A stretch of 64,000 nt of DNA from Cucumis sativus (taxonomy: Eukaryota; Streptophyta; Magnoliopsida; Cucurbitales; Cucurbitaceae): positions 28,213,498 through 28,277,497 of the forward strand of contig NC_026660.2 in NCBI RefSeq assembly GCF_000004075.3, in the 5' to 3' direction. The notes beneath the pieces were generated by a model, which ran no database searches, had not been told where the DNA came from, and saw only the letters and a list, made by a program, of their open reading frames with translations. Numbering within the stretch: position 1 is the stretch's first letter; each line of letters opens with the position of its first letter. Made by a program: the position numbers and the translations under genes. Positions 6,913-37,848 of the stretch are shown one piece after another.

Positions 6913-9196
6913 TTATAATTTACTCTTTTCAGTAGCAATCTCTTGTAGGTAATGTTCTGCATCCAAAGCAGCCATGCAACCTGCATCATTTCAACATCTT
7001 GAATCAGCTCAAAACAATAACCATATCCAATGCAATACAAAACAATTACTTTCTACGAGAAACTGACGAGTGACTATGAACAAAAAAGAGAATTCCTTAA
7101 CATCAGGACGACAAACCAAGAAACTAATTGATAGAAATAGTGTTTAAAAGCAGCTATATTTTAAAAAACCAAAGCTTCTTTTGTTATCCATTACTTCTAT
7201 GTTCTTGAAGACCAAGTCAAACTTTGAAATCTAGAAAAAAATAGTATTTAAAACCAAGCTTTTTACTTTTAAAATTTGACTAAGAATTCAAGTATACTTC
7301 CACTAAGAATAAAATCAATAAACATGAATTTAGAAGAAACAAACAAAAAACTAAGAACAAAATCACTGCAAAACGAGACTCGAATTCATGAGATTCTATA
7401 CAATTTGAGAGTAAGTACTTGCCCTAGTAAGAATAATAAACCAAACCAATGGCATCGAACACAAAAGGCACAACCCTAATAAATAGAGTTAAAGAACACA
7501 GTGAACCAGTTCATCCGGGATGATTTGTTACACAAAACTAAACTGCTTTCAACTAGAGCCATCCCAATCAACCCTATTCTCTATAGTGCCAAATATATGT
7601 AAAAATCTGACATCTGCTCTGTGAAAATAATATTTCTAGGTTAAATGTCGAGTTCTCTCTGAAATAGAGGAGAGGAGAAAGCTCATTCAAACCATCACAA
7701 CGATCTTTTCTCTTAACATTTGTGAGTGCCTTGGTCAGCTGGTACGTGTCTCACTTGTTCTTACGTAGCAACTACCTAAACCCTGATATATTTTGTTGCC
7801 TACCTCAGGCTCATTTTCTCTATAGCCCTTTCTTACTTCCATGAACCTTGTTAATCACTAAGCCAAACCCACAACGACCCATCACATCAACTACATGGTT
7901 AATATAGAAATTAGGGATTGAGCAAAGAGATTTTCTCTACATGTTCTCCTATCGAAAAACCTTCTTATCAGCACCAAACTTGAATTGAGAAGTTAAGAAC
8001 ATTCAAATGCAAGACGAAGAAGAACAACAAGCAAGTCATAGGAGAAAGGAAGAGTGAAACCACTAACCAGTTCCAGCGGCAGTAATGGCTTGTCTATATC
8101 TCTTGTCTTGTACATCTCCGGCTGCAAAAACTCCCCGAACACTAGTCCGAGTCGACCCCGGGTTTGTCACTATGTAACCATCAGAATCGAGTTGAAGCTG
8201 CCCATCCAAAAACTTGGTCGCTGGTTCATGCCCAATTGCAAAAAATAGCCCAGAAACCTTCAAATCGGATACCTTCCCACTAACAACGTTTTTCACTTTC
8301 AGACCTCCTAAAACTCCCTTGTCTCCGTCTCCATAGGCCTCAACCACCACAGAGTTCCAAACCACCTCGATCTTTGGGTTGCTCAGGGCCCGCTGCTGCA
8401 TGATTTTTGATGCCCTAAAAGCATCTCGCCGATGGATGATGTGCACTTTGGAGCCATATTTGGTGAGGAAAATCGCTTCCTCCATGGCTGAATCACCACC
8501 ACCGATCACTGCCAACGGCTTATCCCTGAAAATGGGGGCAGCGCCGTCGCAAACTGCACAAGCGGATATGCCACGATTCCAAAACCCTCCTGGTGCATCG
8601 CCAGAGCCAGCAAATGATAAACGCTTCGCAACAGCACCTGTGGCCACAATTACAGAGTCTGCGAGTACAGTTTTTGAATCAGTGAAAATCTTGAAAGGAT
8701 TAGTGGAGAAATCGACTTTGCTAACAGTTTCGGTGAAAATCTGAGTTCCGAAACGGAGAGATTGGTTGCGGCACCGGTCCATCAGATCCATTCCAAGGAC
8801 ACCGTTTGAGAAGCCGGGGAAATTCTCAACTTCGGTAGTGGTGGTAAGCTGTCCACCCGGCGCAATGTCGTTGGCCATCCATCCTTCGAAGAGGATTGGC
8901 CCCAGCTCAGCCCGGGCAGCATATATGGCGGCGGTGTGGGCGGCTGGGCCACTTCCAATGATACAGAGCTTGGTCCTCAAGTTTTGAAGACCAAGATCGT
9001 CCATGGCCGCGATTTTGGAACCGGAACTCGCAGAACTAGAAGAAAGAAATGCCGCCGCAACTGTGGTAGACGCTACGCCAATTAAATTTCGACCTCTTAC
9101 GAGAAAACCAAAGAGCTTCTTTCCATTATAATAAGAGTTACCAAATTTCATCATGTTATGCTTCTCTTTTCCACTCTTTTCAACCTTATCTATCAT
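6913..9196 (-). CDS. NTRB: NADPH-dependent thioredoxin reductase, NTRA/NTRB type
   Basis: This flavoenzyme reduces h- and o-type thioredoxins with NADPH in the cytosol and mitochondria. There are two coding exons, 9196-8068 and 6980-6913, with a 1.1-kb intron between them; the second codes only the last 22 residues ([14 protein letters not shown] plus tail). The total is 398 residues from the first ATG. Visible motifs are the FAD site [10 protein letters not shown] (81-90), the redox pair CAVC (213-216), the NADPH site [10 protein letters not shown] (232-241) with HRRDAFR, and the second FAD site [10 protein letters not shown] (355-364). The first 64 residues are basic and serine-rich, as in a mitochondrial presequence. 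Met65 would give a 334-residue cytosolic form, the usual length of this family. Met15/16 have a better start context than Met1. The leader is a copy of the neighbour's (see 9202-9264 and 9332-9756). The symbol NTRB is by similarity; NTRA fits equally well. Confidence 0.93.
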
Positions 9197-9240
9197 AAGA
9201 ATGGTGGCCTAGAATATGGTAAATCATCAATCCTCGACAT
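9193..9240 (-). promoter_or_regulatory. Upstream ORF of 15 codons in the thioredoxin reductase leader
   Basis: An ATG with A at -3 opens the reading frame [15 protein letters not shown] and stops at a TGA that overlaps the first reductase ATG as ATGA. The first 13 residues are identical to the N-terminus of the coiled-coil protein coded at 10122-10565. If the transcript includes this leader, ribosomes must reinitiate or leak past it to make the reductase. This is seen in the sequence; its use in cells is inferred. Confidence 0.75.
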
Positions 9241-9264
9241 GGTCGTGCGATTGTGCTTCTCGCT
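9202..9264 (-). repeat. Duplicated segment, copy of 10527-10590 (acceptor and first 13 codons)
   Basis: The segment covers the leader-intron acceptor, the end of the leader and 13 codons of the neighbouring coiled-coil gene. Homology stops abruptly after the codons for Pro-Pro: at 9202 the sequence turns into reductase leader, while the partner goes on with its own codons. By analogy with the partner the leader intron of the reductase would end at 9263, giving an exon start at 9262. Confidence 0.85.
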
Positions 9265-9331
9265 TTAGATGCTATACAAAATAACCAAATTACAACGCAC
9301 AGTAAACCTAGAAAATAAGATCGCTCGTTCA

Positions 9332-9756
9332 AATATAATTCCCAATCAAAGAAACGAACAAACCAATCAAACAGTTCCTGCCACTCCGTTAAATCCTACC
9401 AAAACTGAAGAATAAACCCTGCCGGGGAAAAAAACGAACAATAACTTAGATAGTCATAAATAAATTCGACCCCACCTCTAAGAAATAGCGATTAGCCCGT
9501 TCAGGAGAGAGAGACCCACAAAGGAAATTAGCAAGTGAGATTGAAAGGGGGGACCTTAGATCTTTGCAAGGAAGAAACAGTGGGGAGTAGCAAACTTGTC
9601 GTTAGGGATGAAATTGGGCAACAATTGCAGTCGCTCTTGCCGCCGGAAAATGGGAATAGACGACCGTCGACGATAAACTGGAACTAACTTCTCGACGGCT
9701 GCGTAGAAATTCGAGACAGAGAATGAGATAGCGAAAATTGCACGTTTCGAAAGAAT
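9332..9756 (-). repeat. Duplicated promoter and leader exon, copy of about 12737-13164
   Basis: Both copies share long blocks such as AACCAATCAAACAG, GCGATTAGCCCGTTCAGGAG, AGTAGCAAACTTGT and GACGACCGTCGACGAT, at roughly 80-85 percent identity by eye. Read on the minus strand, both hold a leader exon that could end at the shared AAG/GTCC donor (9555 here, 12946 in the partner). Here the leader intron would be about 290 bases, against about 2.36 kb in the partner. The most likely role is promoter and first noncoding exon of the reductase. Confidence 0.85.
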
Positions 9757-10121
9757 ATGTACTTCGGTTCATAAAGAAAAAGAAATTCTGAAAAACAAAG
9801 ATTGAAACTATTTAAAAATATAATTCAAAAAAACTTAAATAAGCTAAAAACAATCCATTAAATGTATGTAATTTGATAAAACTATCACAAATCTAATAAA
9901 AATTAACACATTTAATCATAAAACTTAGAATTACATAAACAGCATTTTCAAGAAGTAAATTAAAGAAGCTTCCTTTCTTGTCTTGTTAACCCCCGACCTA
10001 TACAATGGCTCAAAAGGTTAAACATTTTTTCTTATATTGATAGCAGCTCCTAGCAAAACTGTACATATTTTTCCAGTTCTACTTATCATCACAAAAGGCA
10101 GAAAATTAGCAACATAGGTAA

Positions 10122-10565
10122 CTAATGCTGTGGTAAATTTGAATGGGCAAGCTGCAATTCTGAACGATCGATTAGTCCTTCTAAAACAAGAAGTTCATCC
10201 AAGAGACCAAGCTTTTCTTCTTCTAGGGTCTTTACTTCATCTTCAACTCCTTTCAGTTCTGCTCCCAAACTAAAGCTCTCTTCCTCTAGGAGTAAGTATT
10301 TTCTTCTTAAGGCACGGTACTCATTCCCAGATGCAGATGAATCTGGCAACGAATCCGAATTCGATCTTTCGGGCTGCTGAAACACTACGGATGGTTCATT
10401 TTTCAAACTTCTTTTGGAAGCCTTCTGTGCTGTTTGTGCTGGAAAAGACCCCTTAATTCGATCACTGGGATCTTTCACTTGTACATGAGATGCTGTGGAA
10501 GCTTTTTGATGCAAAGCTTTCTGTTTTGGTGGTCTAGAGTATGGTAAATCGTCAATCCGAGACAT
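10122..10565 (-). CDS. Small coiled-coil protein of unknown function
   Basis: This is a 147-residue protein coded by one exon. It starts [15 protein letters not shown]. The N-terminal 80 residues are polar and look disordered. Residues from about 83 to 138 (starting at YRALRRKYLLLEEESF) have the heptad pattern and high Glu/Leu content of a coiled coil. I do not recognise the family with confidence, but the clean ORF, the coiled coil and the preserved first 13 codons in the duplicated copy at 9.2 kb show that it is a real gene. The leader appears split: an acceptor at 10588-10589 lies 20-odd bases before the ATG, and the proposed leader exon ends at 12946. Homo-oligomerisation or a role as subunit of a larger complex would fit; no function can be assigned. 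Confidence 0.8.
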   Translation of the reverse strand: MSRIDDLPYSRPPKQKALHQKASTASHVQVKDPSDRIKGSFPAQTAQKASKRSLKNEPSVVFQQPERSNSDSLPDSSASGNEYRALRRKYLLLEEESFSLGAELKGVEDEVKTLEEEKLGLLDELLVLEGLIDRSELQLAHSNLPQH

Positions 10566-10587
10566 GGCGGTGCAGTCCTGCTTCTCA

Positions 10588-12945
10588 CTGCAGCGGCTGT
10601 GGAAAAGATTAAAAGTACAAAAGAATAGATAATTAGTCGTTATTTATTTTAGGGTTTGAGAGTCGCACAGAAGTATGAGGCAATGAAGTTTGTCACGGTG
10701 CAAGAACATTCATTATCAACACCAAACATCATAGCAAACCATGTATCTTCTCTTAAAAATTATTTCAAACCATTAACTTTTATTAAGGAAAATATATTTG
10801 CATCGCAACTATTTTAAATTGAATATGTCCAACAACCAAAAATACCTACAGTCAATAGAGAAACACATTGAAGAAACGTTCTGAATGTTAACATCACTAT
10901 AAATCAACTTCATCACTTTCATATAAAAGACAGTTTACAATTACTTAAAGCTTAAAGATTTTAGAAGTTGTGTCAAAGTCACTGCCACTTGGTCCAGTCA
11001 ACTTTCTTTTTAACCATATGTCCAGCTAATAAATAAGAAAATATTCCACTTATTCAAAGGGATAGGAAAAATATAGGAATACTTAAACTTTCAAAATAAG
11101 GCAACCAGAGCATATCTTTGTGGTTAAGGTATATATAATATACCCTGATAAAAAAGTTTGGAGTTTCGAGACTTCCACCTCACGTGTTGAACTCCAAAAA
11201 AATCAGAACCACTACAAGGAAATTAAAAATGTTAACCATCAAGGATGGTTAAGTAACAATGCCTACAACTACAATAAACAAGAGACAGAAAAAGGAAAAC
11301 AGAAACCATAATTAGGATAACAAAAATGGAGAGTGGGTGGGACCAAGAAGGTGAAACTTCTTAGAACCGAAAGACTGTTGTATAACCTTTGGAACATATC
11401 CTATCAAAGTAAGGTTGTACTAAAAGTGTGAAACTTCCGTATTGATCTTTGCCTTTTTACTTTGGTTTCTTTTTTGTGTCATATCTTACTCCCTTTATGG
11501 TCATACAATCAGTGACTCTGTACTTTCACTCTTGTGCTACTTATATCTCTCATTCAAAAGACAATTCTGGTACGCAATAAATCCCACGGAACTCACCTAC
11601 CGTACAAGTCTTTCCTTCTGATCCATCTTACCGCTTTCTCTTCTTCTAGCAACAAAATCCTCAACAAGCATTATCTTCTCTTTTACTCATTCTTGGATTG
11701 TGAAGAAAGAAAAATCAACTAAGATGGAAGTGTGACAGAATCCTATCTCACGAATGGTATGCCTAGATGGGAGGCAAGGGGCAGTAGTTTGTCAACTTTT
11801 CATGGTATATAAACAATCATAAATGCAAGTCTCAGGCATTTGATTTCTAAAATGTTCCTAACGTTGTTATCTATCCAAAAAAAATGAGAAGTTGTGCTAC
11901 CATCCGTAAGATGGTATATAAACAATCTTGTGCTACTTCTTCTAGCAACAAAGTCCTCACGTGTGGATTCAACACACAAACAAACAAAAAAAGAAAGCAT
12001 CCAACACAAAATCCATTAATAAATCCCACACGACAAAGATACAAACTACATCAGAATGCAGTCCTGAATCCACAAGCCCACAATTCGAGTTCGGCATAAG
12101 CTATACAAAGAGAATTAGAAACATTACAAAAGATCAAGTCCACTTTTCACACCGATCTTTTGCAAGAACTCAAGACTTCCAATAGAGAAGGGAGGGAATT
12201 AAAACACTGATATCATACCAATTACCAATTAATGGAAGTACAGAACAAAAGAGAGAAAGACATAAAAAACTCAGCAGGGTTAATCTCAATTAAAACACAG
12301 ATGAAAAATATAGTCATCAAAACAATCAATAAAGAACATCCGATAACAGAATCTTATTAAAACGATCCCCAAAACAAAATTATAAGTAATTGCTCGGTTA
12401 ACTTAGATTCTAATTCAAAAGAGCTCATAGTAATAACACACACACACACACATATATATGGCAACTCGTTCCCCCAAAATTTGATCATTTTTTAAAACAC
12501 TTGAGCTGCGAAATACCAGGCGATGATAAAGAAAACGTAATGATTAGAAGACCAAAAACTAAAAACCAGAAAACCGTAGAAATCTAAACCGACGATGCCC
12601 TAAGCATAGGAAGTACATTAGACGTTTAACCCTGAACCCCACGCCAGGCATAGGGGTCGGATTGAAGCGGGGAAACCCACAAAGTGAATCAAAATACATC
12701 AAGGCATTAAACCTATAAAATAAATGCGCTGCTTCTAATATAATTCGAAATCGAAAGAAATACGAACAAACCAATCAAACAGCTCATGCCACTACGTTAA
12801 ATCCTACCCAAATTTAAGAGTAAACCCGCGGGGGAAAAAACGAACAATAAAGAAATTCGATCCCACCTCTAAGAGATAGCGATTAGCCCGTTCAGGAGTG
12901 AAAGACCCAGAAAGGTAATCGGCAAGTGAGATTGAAAAGAGGGAC
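10588..12945 (-). other. Long leader intron of the coiled-coil gene
   Basis: The boundaries are inferred from the AAG/GTCC donor at 12946/12945 and an AG acceptor at 10588-10589. Inside there is no convincing coding sequence. Short direct repeats are present: ttctagcaacaaa at about 11644 and 11938, and ggtatataaacaatc at about 11804 and 11912. A CA/TA microsatellite lies at 12437-12457. Confidence 0.55.
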
Positions 12946-13164
12946 CTTAAATCTTTACAAGAGGGAAACAGTACTGGAGAGTAGCAAACTTGTGGTTAGA
13001 GATGAAATTGAGAAAGGGTTAGAATGGCTGAAGCCGTCGGAAGATGGCCATAGACGACCGTCGACGATGAATTTCCCCAACAAAGTTGTCGACCGAAGTG
13101 GCGTAGAAATTCAGAGATAAAAGAGACTTGAGAAAGGAAAATGGCACGTTTTCGGGAGAAATTA
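12737..13164 (-). promoter_or_regulatory. Proposed promoter and leader exon of the coiled-coil gene
   Basis: This is the partner of the duplicated segment at 9332-9756. The donor AAG/GTCC at 12946 and the conserved stretch up to about 13160 mark the likely first exon and core promoter. The transcription start is not visible. Confidence 0.55.
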
Positions 13165-14938
13165 TTGATTTTTGCCACAATGTGGCGGGCAATTCTTACG
13201 TACAAGGGAGAAACGCGTCTTATTTATACTTGGTAGTTATCAAGCGATTGCCTTTTACTTTAATTACAAATTTGTCCCTACAATGTAAATATATCATTTC
13301 GGTTACATAAAACCTCATAAATGGACTGTGATTTTGATTAGGTAGTTCTTAAGTTTTATCAAATTATATAGAATAAATTCTTGACAATAAATCACCTTGA
13401 CTCAATCTTAGTTTTTTATAGTAAATATATAATTTAACTATATATTTATTTAATAACTTACGAGTTTTTTCTATGTATTTATATTTTATTAAGGCAATAG
13501 ATGTTTTATGTAATTTTGAACATAATAACGTGGTTGACGTAGGGTAATAAAATTACATTAATGGTTTTTCTTCAACAGGAAAAGGGTAAGAGAAATCACA
13601 TTCTTATACTGATTTTTATTTTAATTTCATCTATATAAATTTCAATATTTATACCTTTTCATATCAATTATTTTTTATTAAATATAAGCTTTCCATTCTA
13701 GGATTTATAAATTGAAAACAAAACCAACAAACATAATAACTAAATTGAAATGAAACTCAAATCTTAAATATTACTTTTAGATTCAAAATTTAAGATTAAC
13801 GCTTGTATCTTTTCCGTAAAACTATTAGAGTCTCAACGTGATACTTTAATTTATGATCATGGCGTAAGTTGTATGTTTAATTACTAGAACGATTAATCAA
13901 TATTTGAAATTTTTGTATGGATGACTTATAATTACAAAAAGTTGCGTTAAAAAAAAAAAAAGACTTCGATACTTATACCATTCACGGTCAATATGGTCGC
14001 TAAAATATATGTAAGGGCTTAACACTCCTACTAATTATTGCACCTTCCTCCCCTTCTTCTTCTCGTTTCTCCTTAGACTGAAAAATAGACATATATGTTG
14101 TGTTGGATTTCTCTTGACTGGATGGAAGCTATGGACAAGATATTCAATTCAATTCATGACTGTAACTTTGATTTTTTAATAACACGAACATTTGCGTAGG
14201 AGAAGAGTGATTGGATCTGAAGGGAGTGAGAGGAGAGACGACACCATAGTTGGTGTGAGGCACAGTGATGTCGTCGGGTAGAGTATTGGAAGGGCGGATG
14301 CTACGAGCCTTTTCTCACATGATCATTGTGGTGTGACAACGAAAGGAAATGGAGAAGGAGAGTGGTGGAGGAGAGCAAACTAATACTAAAAAGGAAAGAC
14401 TTGCCAAAAACTGTCGAACAAAAAGATGTGAAGAAGTGACAGGAAGAATTAGAACGAAGAAACGAGTGGAAAGGAACGAAAGTTCATGGAAGCGTATGGC
14501 AGTCGCACATTTTTTTGTAAACAAATCGATCCTTTCACGTGTGAGTAACATTCTCAAAAGATTACTTTTCTGGTGGTTATTTTTTTCGAGTCATTCCTAC
14601 AAATTTTCCTCTAGAAAACTCCATTGAAGGTACCAAAGTAATTACTGAGTGAATAATAGCAAAACAAACAATAAAATTAAATTATGTTAAGAGCCCAAAG
14701 CCTTATCTGCTTGTCTTCTTCTTCTTCTTCGAGCTCATCTACCATTCTCGAGGTTCAGGCGAGGAATTCTCGAGTTGTTCCTTCGAATTGATTCCGGTTC
14801 TGAACAATCTAATCATGGCAATGCATTCCCATTGAGCAAACCAGCTAGTACATAGCAGGTATTGTTCGTTTAGGAAAAAATTAAGCTTTAAGCTCGCCAT
14901 CGATTCTCCGAGCCCACTCGCCTCTCTCGCCTCTCGGG
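13165..14938. other. Divergent intergenic region
   Basis: The spacer separates the coiled-coil gene (minus) from the phosphatase gene (plus) and must hold both promoters. A cacgtg G-box core lies near 14537, about 400 bases before the phosphatase start. The short ORFs at 14315-14627 are purine-rich and overlap on both strands, with no recognisable product. Nothing else is supported. Confidence 0.6.
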
Positions 14939-26242: not shown

Positions 26243-28115
26243 TCATTCCTTGTGAGTGGAGTTTAAACTAGACTCCAGTATCTGATGTGCAAGTATCATC
26301 TTTGACTGTATTTGCTTCTTCACTGGCCTCGGACTCTCACTTGGGGAGCTATGGCAACCAGAATCAGGCGTCAATGGTTCGTGATGAGACGAGAAAGAAT
26401 CATCAATAGAGACACTCTTGCCTTGGGCACGTTCCTTTGATACCTTCTCCTGGCGAGGAAACTCGGATGTGGACGCGGGTGTCGAGGGGTCGTTTTTATC
26501 AACTTCTGGGCAGTTATCACCAGAAGCAGGAGCTGTAAAGGCAGAGGCAGCTGGAGCTCCTGAAAGAACCCCACTAAGTTTTTGTTGCTCTTCGATTATC
26601 TTCTTCAAGTACTTGCCTTGGGCTTCAATCCGTAACTGCAGTTGTCTCTGTACCTGCATGCGATGAAACAATCAGATGTTTGTGAAAATTTAGCCCACCC
26701 CGCAGCAGTCGAATCATGATTCCTTGTGATTCATTAGCCAAGACTTCAAATTACGAGTTACGCCGTGCATTCTATTTAGTAATAGGTTGAGTGCGTGCTC
26801 CAGTTTTTAAAATATCTGAAACGTGAAGGGTGCGTGCTCCAATTTTTAGAATAACTAGAGCAAACCTCCAATTGTTCATGCAGTCGCTTCTGGACCTCCA
26901 TCTGCAGCTTAAGTGCTTCAGTAATTTGCATTCCCCTGCAAAAATATAATAAATTTCATTTTTCTTGTCCTTGGTGATCAGATGGTCAAAAGTTTAGGGT
27001 TACTGCCATCAAACAGTCAGTTGCCAATTAAGAGCAAGAAGGGTGCCTCGTTCTACATTATATTTACATTAACTTCCAGTATAACGCAGAGCTAAATGAG
27101 AAGTGTATGGGGATTAGACTTACGACGAGCCATCAATGTTTGATAGAATGTCACTAGAATCCTTCTTGTCGGTCTTTTTCCCTTGCATCAACAATACAAC
27201 AAACAGGTGAATGACTTGGTGGATGTCACTAGTGAGGTTTTGTCTGCAAAATTTTGTGCGAATTAAGATGGAAAAGGAACAATTTGGAACTCGATTCACC
27301 TACCATCAGACGAGGAGTCGGGAAGGTATTTTGCAAGCCTATATTTCTGGATGAATCCAAGAAGACAAATTAGAAAACAAACTTTATGCATGCTAACATA
27401 AACCTCATCTTAAGTAAGAATAAGAAATCAATCTTAATTATGTGAAATATTACATACCTGTAGGTGGCTTTTGACGTGGTATATTGTTAAACCTTGAACA
27501 CCCATTACTCTGAGGACGCCTTTGGGTGTAGCACCTAATGAAAAGATGAAACTTACACCCGTAAATATGGTTTAAGACATCTTAAATCGTCGATTGATTT
27601 AGGAGGTTAGACTGATGAGTGAAGGTAAATTTAATATTCTATCATCTAACGTCATCCTTTGTTGGCACACAAGTTCAAGATAGTCTACCCTAGCTTCAAT
27701 TTTTACTAAGTCCATCATGTTTTATTCCTCCACTCCCCATATAATATACAGGATGCATCCAATTTATGGTGTCAATTTTTCATATCTTTGTTTATTTTAT
27801 TATGCACAAGAATACCCTAACACTTTCATTTTCTCATGTGAGTTGGAAGGGAAAAGTTGTACAACTTGCCAACAAAGAACTAACGCGATAATTTAAATTT
27901 GGCATCAACATTTTCATCCTCAGGCACAGTATACGTATATACGAAGATGCTAAACTACAAAGCTACTAGAGGTGAGTTCACTCACGATCTGGACCACCAA
28001 GTTGTGCGACTGCATTAACAAATCGTTCGTGAAGATCATGTGTCCATCGCAGTCTCTGCTTTGAGGCCAAATTTGGGCTTTTGCTGGTAGCATTATTTCC
28101 ATTTGTGGGGTCCAT
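26243..28115 (-). CDS. PHL7: MYB-CC transcription factor, PHL7-like
   Basis: The six exons are 28115-27986, 27534-27458, 27346-27304, 27181-27124, 26935-26866 and 26653-26243, coding 262 residues. The single MYB-like (GARP) domain runs from about residue 20 ([14 protein letters not shown]) to [20 protein letters not shown] near residue 80. The coiled coil of the CC class follows: [20 protein letters not shown], then [20 protein letters not shown]. The C-terminal part is rich in Ser/Pro and includes [19 protein letters not shown]. The order and wording match the Arabidopsis PHR1-LIKE 7 type as I recall it. MYB-CC proteins bind GNATATNC-like (P1BS) sites as dimers and several act in phosphate response or phloem development; the exact role of this clade is less clear. 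The leader seems to be split by an intron whose acceptor is near 28187. A related gene lies directly upstream. Confidence 0.9.
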
Positions 28116-31441: not shown

Positions 31442-34400
31442 TTATCCCCACATGTCGCATCCGGACACGCCATGATGGTTAACTTGGATGATGTTAGCAT
31501 TTTGTATTCCTTCCTTGGCTCCACTCCAAATCAAAGATGCAGTTGCTGAACCCAAGTTAACCATGTTTTTCTTGCTTGCAGCAGGAGATTTTTCCATAGC
31601 CAATCCCCCGGGACTCTCATTTGAGGTTAGGCAGCTTTCGGTTGAACAATCAGCCCTCTGGCAAGGAAGATTAGCCTGCACTTCTTCTGTTCCATTCACT
31701 CTTTCCATCTCTTGTGATTGCGTGGTGTAGAAACCAAGTGGGTCGATGGAAGTACTTCTCGGGCTCTTGCGATCCTGTCCTTCGGACTTCTTGCTGTCTG
31801 AGTCCGAAACTGCACCTACAATGAATTGATCTGCAAGCATTTTACAAGCTCTCTCAAGCATGGCCAAATATCTTCGCTCGGCATCCTGACGAATTTGTAG
31901 GTGCTTCTCTGCCTGCCCAACGATGGTAAGGTAAGCTAGCTGAAGAATGGACCCCAAGTCTCAGTATTAACACTTGGAACTTGGAAGTTCCTATCCTATC
32001 AGCAGGTACAGAAATCTCCATCGCCAGTTTTTTTATCAGTAATTCTAAACATACTCGATCATGAGGACAATCAACTAAGCAAGCAATCTAAAAACCACAA
32101 ACTTATATGCCTTTTCACCATTAAAATTATGTTTAGGACCCACTCCAGTATTCACTAACAAGTTTGGTTCTTCGTGGAGTCTTGTCCAGAACAATCATCA
32201 ATTTCCATTTTGATGTTAAGGATGAAAATTTTACCTCAACTTGCAGATGCAATTTACTTTGCACCTCCATTTGCGCTCTTAATGCCTCCTTGACTTCATA
32301 ACCACTGAAACAAACATTTAAGTTATAAACAGTTTGAACAAACTTGATATCTCATAACACAACATTCAAGGCATTATCACAAGTATCTTAAAGGAGGGAA
32401 AAAAACTCTTATCTTACTCGGCCATTTCAGAAATTGGCAAGTCAGGAGAGAAATTATTGGTACTTGGACTTTCTAAAAGGTATGCACCTGATGTTCATTG
32501 CACCAAGCGATAAATAAAGATTTAAATAGTTGACTAGATAGGTTAAAACTTTCAGAAATTAGTAGCAAGAGCAAATGCTGATAGTGAAAGGAGAGCAAGT
32601 TCTTTTGGATAAGAACTCCATGACCCAACACAAATAACGTAGTTGAACATCAGCAGACTCATGGAGGCTACATCGCATGGTATGCAAGGACAAAAATAGA
32701 GATGTGTCGCTTACCATCTTTAGATGCCTCACCCATATCCTTCCCAGATTGCTTACCTAATCTGTATTTCTGTAATAAAGAAACAAGCATACATAAAAAT
32801 AAATCCACCATGAATTCCAACATCAGAACTCTTTCATAGAAAGATGCATTTTCATGCCATTATGATTACCTGGAGGTGGCTCTTCAAATGGAAGAGAGTC
32901 AGTCCTTTCACATTCATTGTTCGCATTATTGCTTTTGGAGTAGCTTCTGCACCAAGTGTTCAAATGTCAAACCCTGATCATTGACTAGAATTCAAATATG
33001 ACCCATATCATCCCCACCCTTGTCCCCACCAATAAACAAATTAAAAGAAAGATAGTCAGAAGACCCATCAGTCAAGGCATGCAAAGAAAGTTTCTCTATG
33101 CTGCAAGTAAATGGACTAATGCTTTTTTTTTTTTAAAGTACAACAAATGTGGAGATGAGGATTTGAACCTTTGATTTCAAGAAAAGAAACAGACGCCTAA
33201 AAAACTAAGCTGGAGCTTCTGGCAACAAGTGAACTTAACGATTACACTACAAATTCTGGTTTTTGTAAAGTTCGAATCTTATGGTCAAACATGTCGATCA
33301 TTCTCCAAAAGAAAATAAATAACAATATCTTCAAAGAAAAGAACAGGAGTCCAACCATTTTTGTCAGATTGTACCATTTAAGACCTTAATTGGAGTGCAT
33401 AACACAGTTACACTGCTCTTCCTAACAATCTTGATCGGAGGTTTTATGTCTATCTCTAAGTTGTTCTTTGGGTGTTTTGATAGCGAAAAAGTCTACTTCT
33501 CATCCCAAAAGATCTAAAAACTACAAAACAAAAGGTAAAAATAAAGATTTTTTTTTTAAGTTCTTATATAAAACTCTTTAACAATGACATATTGAACATT
33601 ACAAGTCTGCCACACAGTACGAACCGTATTATAAAAAGATTCACATTGATTATGTTGTGATATAAATACAGTATAACAATATTTTCTGACTGGCTGAATT
33701 GGATTTAAAAAAAAAAAACCAAAACCATTTCAAAATTTAAGCAACCAGTTAATGTGGACATTAGTTTCACAATGTCAAAACTTTAACGATCTCCTTTGTG
33801 GTTATATTGTACTTCAATCCAATATTTTTCCTGGAGGAGTTGAAACATTTATGTGTAACTTAAGCACATAAATAAAATATATAAAGACGAAATTGTCGTT
33901 CCCATTAAGTTCATATAACTACTTTCAACTGTAAAAACTAGATAGAATCACGATGATATTTTATCTTTGTGGACTCTTACATGTGCCTTCACCAGTATAC
34001 AGATGAACTATTTTCACAACTAGAAAACAAAACTATCTTCAAACTGATGATGAGATTTCTTACTGGCAGACTGTGCCTTGATACTCCATTATGAGGCAAA
34101 GGCTAACAAAACCCGTAAATATGATAAGAAAGGATAACTTATGTGGTTGAGCAAATTTCACATATAATAACATTAATTATCGCTCCTGAGATATGACCAT
34201 GAAGGAATCTTGATATGTACCTCACTACCTAGATCATTAAGTTAACTAGTGAAGGTGTTCAAACAACGAATTACAAAAACCTAAAGTTGTATAAAGTTTA
34301 CCCAATAACATTCAAATGATGTCTGGTTCCATTAACTTTTCTGCAAGGTAATTTATTCATATACATGTCTTGAACAAAGTCAAACATACTGCAACTACAG

Positions 34401-36063: not shown

Positions 36064-37750
36064 GTAGTGCGTGAGAGAGAGAAAGAGGGAGGGAGTTGGC
36101 ACAGATTTCAAAGCTTTGTCTTTTTCTGTCATCATCGTCTTCGATGCAGCAATTAGTCGTCAAAATTTTGGAGAATGTAATAAACGACGACGATTATTCC
36201 ACCATCCATCCAAGGGCAATTCCGGAATTCAACCTTAACTTCATAATTTCTTTTTATTAGGATTAGGAACTACTTCCTAATTTATTACAATTAATCATTA
36301 CTCCCTATCTTTATTACAACTATTATTACTTTACTTAATTATTTTATTTTTTGTTAATTAAACTCAAAATAGATTATTGCTTCTTTTTTTTCTTCCCCAA
36401 TCACTTCCAATAATAAAACCTTCATTTTATTGTTCAACATTTCTCTAAGTTCTTATAATAATAATAAAAATATTAAATACACGATAATAAATCATCCACC
36501 GACAATAGGGTAATTATAAGAATGAGGAGATAACAACATCCTAACTAAGAAAACCATTTTAGGCAATCTTCTTGTAGGAAAATGTACACTTTGATTAAAA
36601 GACGGCATAGACAAGGTGCACCATCTTTTCAACTTCAACTAAAATGTTTGTGGAAAGACTCAAATTTGTACCTAAATCTTGCGTAAGCTTTCAAACTTTT
36701 AAGTGTGTGGTGATTAGTAGAATCCATTCTTTTGAATTTAATGGTTAGAGAAAAAAAGATGTAAAAACCAAAATGAATGAGCTTTCAAGCATAAAGTTGA
36801 AACTTTGAACGTTGAGAAATAGTACATGAAGATTTCTATAGATATATGTATGAACAGAAGCATGAAAGAGCAATGAATGATTGACATATCCTATTAAATT
36901 TTAGATTTTCATTCCTAAACTTTATTGCACTTAAAAAGATATAAAAATAAGAAGCTACAAAGTTATATTATATTTTCTTTTTAGAAAAAGTTATGAGCAG
37001 TGGTGATTGTGAAATATTGTTGACGTCGACCCATTCTTCTTCATGGCTCACTCACTTTTTCTTGTATAAAAAAAGGTTTAGGGTTTGACAACAAATAAAG
37101 ATTACTTTTTTAAAAAAGAAAAAAAAAATTCTTTTGAACAAAAATCTTGACAATCGAAACCAATTGTATGTGTAGAAGCACTTATCTCACTATAGCTATA
37201 TATTTAGTACAATTTCAAATAAAAATAATAAAAATATTTACAAAATATGATAAAATTATAGGCCTATTTTGAATAGATATGAATAAAAGACTACTCGTGA
37301 ATGATAGAATATAAAATTTTAGCAAATAATAATAATAATAATATGAATTCAATTAGAATAAAATTCCCAATTTATCCCCTATATCTCCTTTGTATCTCCA
37401 CCAATAATTTTGTCATATTGATGATATTGTCTAGTGGTAGTTGAATCTTATTTGCTTTTTTGACTTAAAAGTTGAGATTTTTTTGGTTTTTGTTTTTTAG
37501 GTAAAATATTAACCAATATCATTATAATCATAATAATCATTTATTTCATTTTATTTCTTGAGCTAAAGCCCTCCTTACCCATAGCTCTCAACTTCCATCC
37601 CTTTCAACTATATAGTCTTTTTACAATTATGCCCATCTCCTCAATTTTGTTTGTGAGTACCCATTTTCAAATAATGTATTTTTCTTTAATATTTTTCTAA
37701 TTTAAATACATTTTAAACAATAGGGCAAATTGCAAAAACTACCATAAAAA

Positions 37751-37848
37751 ACCTATCTTCAAACCAATGATGAGATTTCTTACTGAAAGACTGTAACTTG
37801 ATACTCCATAATGGGGCAAAGGCTAACAAAACCCGTAAATATGATAAG
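37751..37848. repeat. 97-bp repeat, copy 2
   Basis: This is the direct-orientation partner of 34031-34128, 3.7 kb away. It sits inside a sequence that reads like one continuous AT-rich repeat on either side (gcaaaaactaccataaaaa before, ggctatacttctgcg and gctatttttcattc after), as if it had been inserted there. Confidence 0.85.

Follow-up and report, generated by a model that had tools for sequence, protein, structure and literature searches.

This locus raises the question of what a plant thioredoxin reductase gene acquires when the 5' part of an unrelated neighbour comes to stand in front of it: a promoter, a transcribed leader, or an inert relic. The window, meaning the whole stretch of DNA analysed, is 64,000 nucleotides of Cucumis sativus (contig NC_026660.2, positions 28,213,498 to 28,277,497). 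The reductase gene and the adjacent gene for a coiled-coil protein are both on its minus strand, with the sense direction running from high to low coordinates. What is found there is a clear case of leader capture, in which the captured sequence includes an upstream open reading frame (uORF). An earlier, sequence-only reading had described two blocks upstream of the reductase that match the neighbour in the same order and orientation, and this was confirmed by a self-BLAST of the full window, run with low-complexity filtering and a limit of E 1e-4, which returned three self-matches, two of them being these blocks:

9300..9756, minus strand: copied block 1, leader exon and start of the leader intron (source 12705-13164)
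9202..9295, minus strand: copied block 2, comprising the leader intron's end, a short untranslated stretch and the first 13 codons (source 10527-10620)

The duplication upstream of the reductase is real. In the self-BLAST, block 1 appeared as 9300-9747 against 12705-13151, with identity in 362 of 465 columns (E 2e-98), and block 2 as an ungapped match with 70 of 94 positions identical (E 6e-10). Their global alignment scores, 503 and 92, were reached in 0/100 and 0/500 dinucleotide shuffles. The blocks are collinear, in the same orientation and near each other, with a spacing of 4 bases in the copy against 2,084 in the original. Alignment of 9200-9760 with 10520-13170 thus gave two significant collinear blocks and not scattered similarity, although their inner edges, at 9300 and 9295, are closer together than the 9332 and 9264 first claimed.

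Both outer edges of the copy can be observed directly. The 3' edge, at 9202, lies past codon 13 within the coding sequence of the neighbour, and it is as sharp as had been claimed: when the register is kept, the 32 positions that follow contain 27 differences, and the score of the flank beyond it was reached in 388/500 shuffles, i.e., it was no better than chance. Here the copy is cut inside its source gene and joined to another gene, the reductase frame opening at 9196. With the coiled-coil protein as query, tblastn on the window recovered the protein's own coding sequence and the 13 codons (E 0.003); the other matches listed all had an E of at least 0.49. The 5' edge is sharp near 9756 in the copy and 13164 in the original; beyond it, 9757-9850 and 13165-13260 aligned with a global score of -26, which 49/500 shuffles reached (95/500 for the local score). 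A control pair of unrelated intron stretches gave 31/500 (global) and 165/500 (local). For the 44-46 bases beside the edge the corresponding values were 15/500 and 81/500, which leaves room for a short decayed remnant, yet block 2, of a length like that of the whole flank, scores 92.

The recipient gene was delineated as follows, the first exon by Pfam and PDB matches to its open frame and the remainder by inspecting the sequence by eye:

8068..9196, minus strand: first coding exon of the thioredoxin reductase
6981-8067, minus strand: intron of the thioredoxin reductase, with GTTAGT...GCAG ends
6913..6980, minus strand: last coding exon of the thioredoxin reductase

The reading frame from 9196 to 8068 contains a Pyr_redox_2 domain (Pfam, E 2.9e-47), and its best match among solved structures is the Arabidopsis structure 1vdc (E 3.3e-173, query residues 69-377). 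By these two matches the enzyme is a plant low-molecular-weight NADPH-thioredoxin reductase (NTR) of the NTRA/NTRB type, and its gene looks intact. In-frame ATG codons are seen in three groups, at 9196 (C at -3), at 9154/9151 (A at -3) and at 9004 (GCCATGG). Counted from ATG 9154, residues 1-45 include 5 K/R, 10 S/T and no D/E. Because of this composition, which is as expected for a mitochondrial presequence, the extension is regarded as presequence-like. The match to 1vdc starts past this part, at residue 69 of the 9196 frame, and ATG 9004, which is Met51 when numbered from ATG 9154, lies immediately upstream of the matching region. Thus, judged by composition and ATG positions alone, the reductase has both an N-terminal extension and an internal start. 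The two forms in Arabidopsis are said, by Reichheld and colleagues in 2005, to come from transcripts that differ in length. For Arabidopsis NTRA, a downstream start at Met49 with an acetylated ME N-terminus is tabulated (Ac-ME; PMC8770321), and NTRA and NTRB are reported to be expressed in both mitochondria and cytosol (PMC7539121). It may be added that a short out-of-frame open reading frame (ORF) with A at -3 and G at +4 lies within the presequence (9126-9097, minus strand), between the mitochondrial and the cytosolic ATG codons.

The sequence-only reading had the reductase take over both the promoter and the leader of its neighbour. The leader, the intron ends and the first codons were indeed copied, but copying of the core promoter is not supported, as judged by the one TATA element found by a motif scan:

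13221..13228, minus strand: TATAAATA, in front of the neighbour and outside the copied block

This is the sole match to TATA[AT]A in 13150-13300, and it lies about 60 bases beyond the copied block. Since the neighbour's TATA box is outside the homology, a copied leader is demonstrated and a copied promoter is unsupported; the copied block consists of leader and intron sequence. Nor does tied expression of the two proteins, which had been expected from the takeover, follow without a shared promoter. Between the copied block and the first presequence ATG lie only 47 bases (9155-9201), a short space in which to fit a promoter belonging to the reductase itself, and mRNAs for the mitochondrial form must begin either in or above the copied block or inside those 47 bases.

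Transcripts that begin in the copied leader are predicted to be spliced. The features concerned, on the side of the copy and of the neighbour, are as follows:

9272..9475, minus strand: 204-base leader intron predicted in the copy, with GTGGGG ... TATAG ends (or ending at 9263)
12867..13164, minus strand: predicted leader exon of the neighbour, copied extent (alignment and splice-site scoring)
10597..12866, minus strand: 2,270-base leader intron predicted in the neighbour (splice-site scoring and matching acceptors)
10125..10565, minus strand: coding sequence of the coiled-coil neighbour, 147 amino acids (open frame), source of the 13 codons

By a donor scoring matrix, no GT in 9296-9800 scores higher than the donor GAG/GTGGG (the slash marks the splice point) at 9475 in the copy (4.09), and none in 12650-13200 higher than its counterpart at 12866 in the original (3.61); among all minus-strand GTs of the window, 1.0% score at least 4 and 2.2% at least 3. 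Acceptor AGs are found at corresponding places, namely CACAG in the original (10597) and TATAG in the copy (9272), and GCAG (10588) and AAAG (9263), respectively. Thus, candidate splice sites do survive at matching positions, as had been proposed, and the leader is predicted to be an exon in both genes. The intron sizes differ from the 2.36 kb and roughly 290 bases given in the sequence-only reading, the predicted intron being about 2,270 bases in the original and about 204 in the copy. The copy also has an alternative acceptor, TTCTAG/G, whose last intron base is 9209.

Three features go beyond the earlier description, namely a closed uORF made from the 13 copied codons, its overlap with the reductase start in the sequence ATGA, and the restriction of all codon differences to synonymous sites. 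The first can be read directly from the sequence:

9193..9240, minus strand: captured uORF of 15 codons, its TGA overlapping the reductase ATG at 9196

Copied codon 13 is followed by TTC TTA TGA, which closes a uORF that starts at ATG 9240 with A at -3; the stop codon overlaps the first in-frame ATG of the reductase at 9196-9193. A second uORF, starting at 9227, overlaps the captured one. The captured uORF is predicted to be present in the leader of reductase mRNA. Over the 13 shared codons the two proteins are identical, while 5 of 39 nucleotides differ, all 5 synonymously. When five changes were placed at random outside the ATG, the peptide stayed unchanged in a fraction of only 0.0007-0.0019 of 200,000 simulations, varying with the share of transitions; this calculation concerns both branches jointly. 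Had the neighbour alone been constrained while the copy drifted, the copy should have gathered 2.5-6.6 amino-acid changes, and the chance of none is 0.08 at the divergence of block 1 and 0.0014 at the divergence of the noncoding positions in block 2. The synonymous divergence of the 13 codons is high (5 of 9.0 sites), measured over very few sites. From these values, constraint on the 13 codons of the copy is likely, though not certain. It could reflect either a uORF peptide that has been kept or a formerly full gene that was truncated later.

From the duplication, the frames and the synonymous differences we infer the following course of splicing, translation and targeting. The 5' region of the reductase would be a chimera, in which a spliced, captured leader with its uORF favours the cytosolic enzyme, a proposal to which we give about an even chance. 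Transcripts beginning above 9476 would lose 9475 to 9272 (or to 9263) from their leader by splicing and would carry the captured ORF (ATG 9240) in that leader. In general, a ribosome that has translated a short ORF can re-initiate only after scanning some way further. After the captured ORF, ATG 9154, 38 bases on, would be too close, and ATG 9004, 188 bases on, would be better placed, such that the cytosolic enzyme would be favoured. Messages without the captured ORF, whether they start below 9240 or are spliced at TTCTAG/G (9209), would serve the mitochondrial form. A bolder extension holds that the captured peptide is kept by selection, acts on its own ribosome and thereby sets the amounts of mitochondrial and cytosolic reductase; the rearrangement would then have made the coding start of one protein into a regulatory uORF of an unrelated enzyme. 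This extension is improbable on present evidence.

The divergence of the two blocks bears on this proposal. Of the aligned positions in block 1, 70 of 439 differ (39 gap columns excluded), against 19 of 55 among the noncoding positions of block 2 (Fisher P 0.0023). That block 1 has diverged less fits a leader and early intron that are used in both genes. Seven invariant runs of 14-23 bases are present, four in the leader exon and three in the first ~120 bases of the intron. One run, CTGTTTGATTGGTTTGTTCG at 9374-9355, has a word one mismatch away from the intron-enhancement motif TTNGATYTG, and two further words at one mismatch were listed in each copy. The region 8000-14000 had no Rfam match at gathering scores, and the 23-base invariant leader stretch had no match in viral contigs, a search uninformative on plants.

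Several observations weigh against a working captured leader. The neighbour's TATA box is absent from the copy. If transcription started about 30 bases below the TATA-like TTTAAATA at 9816, it would add to the leader ATG 9772 with a frame of 56 codons. The slower divergence of block 1 is equally expected from local rate variation or gene conversion, and leader RNA folding is no better than that of shuffles (z 0.21). The copied leader exon, 9476-9756, is free of ATG; judged by dinucleotide shuffles, which have 1.98 on average, this lacks significance (P 0.107), and by simple shuffles P is 0.028.

Among the other explanations, the one that survives best accounts for the synonymous-only pattern by a complete second coiled-coil gene that lived long under selection and was truncated recently. 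It could equally be true or false, and it is compatible with the captured leader now acting on the reductase. Constraint on the 13 codons suits a formerly complete gene, and a tandem duplication of 3.4 kb would yield just such a second gene minus its promoter. However, the neighbourhood of the reductase retains no trace of codons 14-147, the next tblastn match among those listed having an E of 0.49, and a copy that begins at 13164 would have lacked a TATA box from the outset.

The captured leader may instead be an inert relic, with the reductase transcribed from below 9240, either from the copied intron or from the 47 non-copied bases, to give mRNAs that have neither leader nor uORF; the copied DNA would then be at most promoter sequence. 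This is consistent with a TATA box left behind, with a leader that has neither a special fold nor an Rfam match, and with the reduction in reductase output to be expected from a uORF in good start context. It is nonetheless rather unlikely, considering that the splice-site positions are retained in the copy, that divergence is lower in block 1 than at the noncoding positions of block 2, and that the uORF peptide is unaltered.

Copying of the neighbour's promoter as well, with co-expression of both genes, appears doubtful to a greater degree. Upstream of the copy are TTTAAATA at 9816 and TATTTA at 9841, and TTTAAATA stands 60 bases above the block edge, where TATAAATA stands 64 bases above it in the original. 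This similar spacing is only suggestive: one of the words TATAAA[AT], TTTAAATA and TATATAA starts in ~1% of 11-base stretches of the minus strand, and TTTAAATA was added to the set after being seen. The 44-46 bases by the edge might be a short decayed remnant, but the full 94-96 bases above it have a score of -26, which shuffles reach about as readily as they do that of the unrelated intron pair, against 92 for block 2 at a similar length. Finally, an assembly error that placed the neighbour's 5' region twice can be dismissed as very improbable, because misplaced copies of one allele would be near-identical, whereas these differ at 16% (block 1) and 26% (block 2) of aligned positions, with many gaps.

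With regard to the origin of the chimeric 5' region, a distance of 3,408 bases separates the start of the copied block (9756) from that of its source (13164), and this span takes in all of the coiled-coil coding sequence together with its 3' flank. As the simplest order of events we infer a probable tandem duplication of a ~3.4-kb unit that contained the coiled-coil gene, followed by deletions. The downstream copy would have lost ~2.1 kb of its leader intron, and a second deletion would have run from codon 14 to within ~50 bases of the reductase presequence ATG, removing the former upstream region of the reductase and so placing this gene behind the leader of the copy. The reverse possibility, a transposon insertion that lengthened the intron of the original, was considered and rejected, as neither inverted ends nor direct repeats were seen at the break points. 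In 10560-12760, the repeats listed (at least 12 bases, a length at which a shorter target-site duplication could be missed) flank neither break point, 10620 or 12705. Deletion in the copy is thus more likely than insertion in the original. An RNA-mediated retrocopy was also rejected, because the copy retains predicted intron sequence at 9300-9475 and 9263-9295.

Conserved-peptide uORFs of plants are short, and their peptide stays unchanged though synonymous sites differ. The captured uORF resembles them in its identical peptide and differing synonymous sites, the comparison here being one source-copy pair and not a set of orthologues. To our knowledge, the origin of constrained uORF peptides is mostly unknown. 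Here, source and recipient are adjacent in one window, and a captured coding start is now the uORF of a housekeeping enzyme. Should selection act on the peptide in the copy, this would be a traceable birth of a constrained uORF peptide, and it would offer an easy way to approach the partition of a single reductase gene's product into mitochondrial and cytosolic shares; should the constraint only reflect a longer-lived full duplicate, it is ordinary leader capture.

The arrangement is probably a variant of the chimeric genes formed by tandem duplication. In Drosophila yakuba, according to Rogers, Shao and Thornton (2017; PMC5460883), tandem duplication yields chimeric genes and shuffles regulatory elements. 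The likeness is that the 5' part of a neighbour is set before another gene, with a possible change in expression; unlike the Drosophila chimeras, the captured codons here stay in a closed uORF and are not fused to the recipient protein, and the event looks old, with a probable tandem origin. What sets it apart is a foreign coding start employed as a uORF before a probably dual-targeted enzyme. With plant NTRA/NTRB, as described in PMC7539121 and PMC8770321, the reductase shares its family, an N-terminal extension and an internal start (Met51 here, Met49 in NTRA), and it differs in that its 5' region is a captured leader with a uORF. The arrangement was not found in the literature on NTRA/NTRB, uORFs, cucumber NTR and tandem chimeras, in those parts of it that were accessible, subscription journals being mostly outside the coverage.

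As for the coiled-coil neighbour itself, its protein gave a sub-threshold Pfam match to INO80E (15.3 bits against a cut-off of 27.8) that covers the whole model; it may be a plant relative of a subunit of the INO80 complex. It had no PDB match better than E 0.45, and of 157 pattern-matching stretches in bacterial and archaeal contigs none was confirmed at E 1e-3, a result uninformative on plants. The neighbour's own leader has a short uORF, MAIFRRLQPF followed by a stop (13051, minus strand), whose ATG is ATT in the copy. Its leader intron contains an exact 17-base repeat (11802-11818 and 11911-11927), and CTTCTTCTAGCAACAAA(A/G)TCCTCA also occurs twice in this intron, at 11640 and 11936.

The window as a whole looks like plant nuclear DNA, with a guanine-plus-cytosine content of 0.347 and intron-broken genes that include pieces of MYB-CC, glycosyltransferase 8 and phosphofructokinase. 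The third self-match is a 103-base direct repeat, 34026-34128 and 37746-37848, 90% identical and 3.7 kb apart. MYB-CC LHEQLE matches occur in two open stretches of the minus strand, 26246-26671 and 31445-31960, about 5 kb apart; the second, at 21.4 bits, falls short of the Pfam cut-off of 29.1, and the two are perhaps neighbouring related genes.

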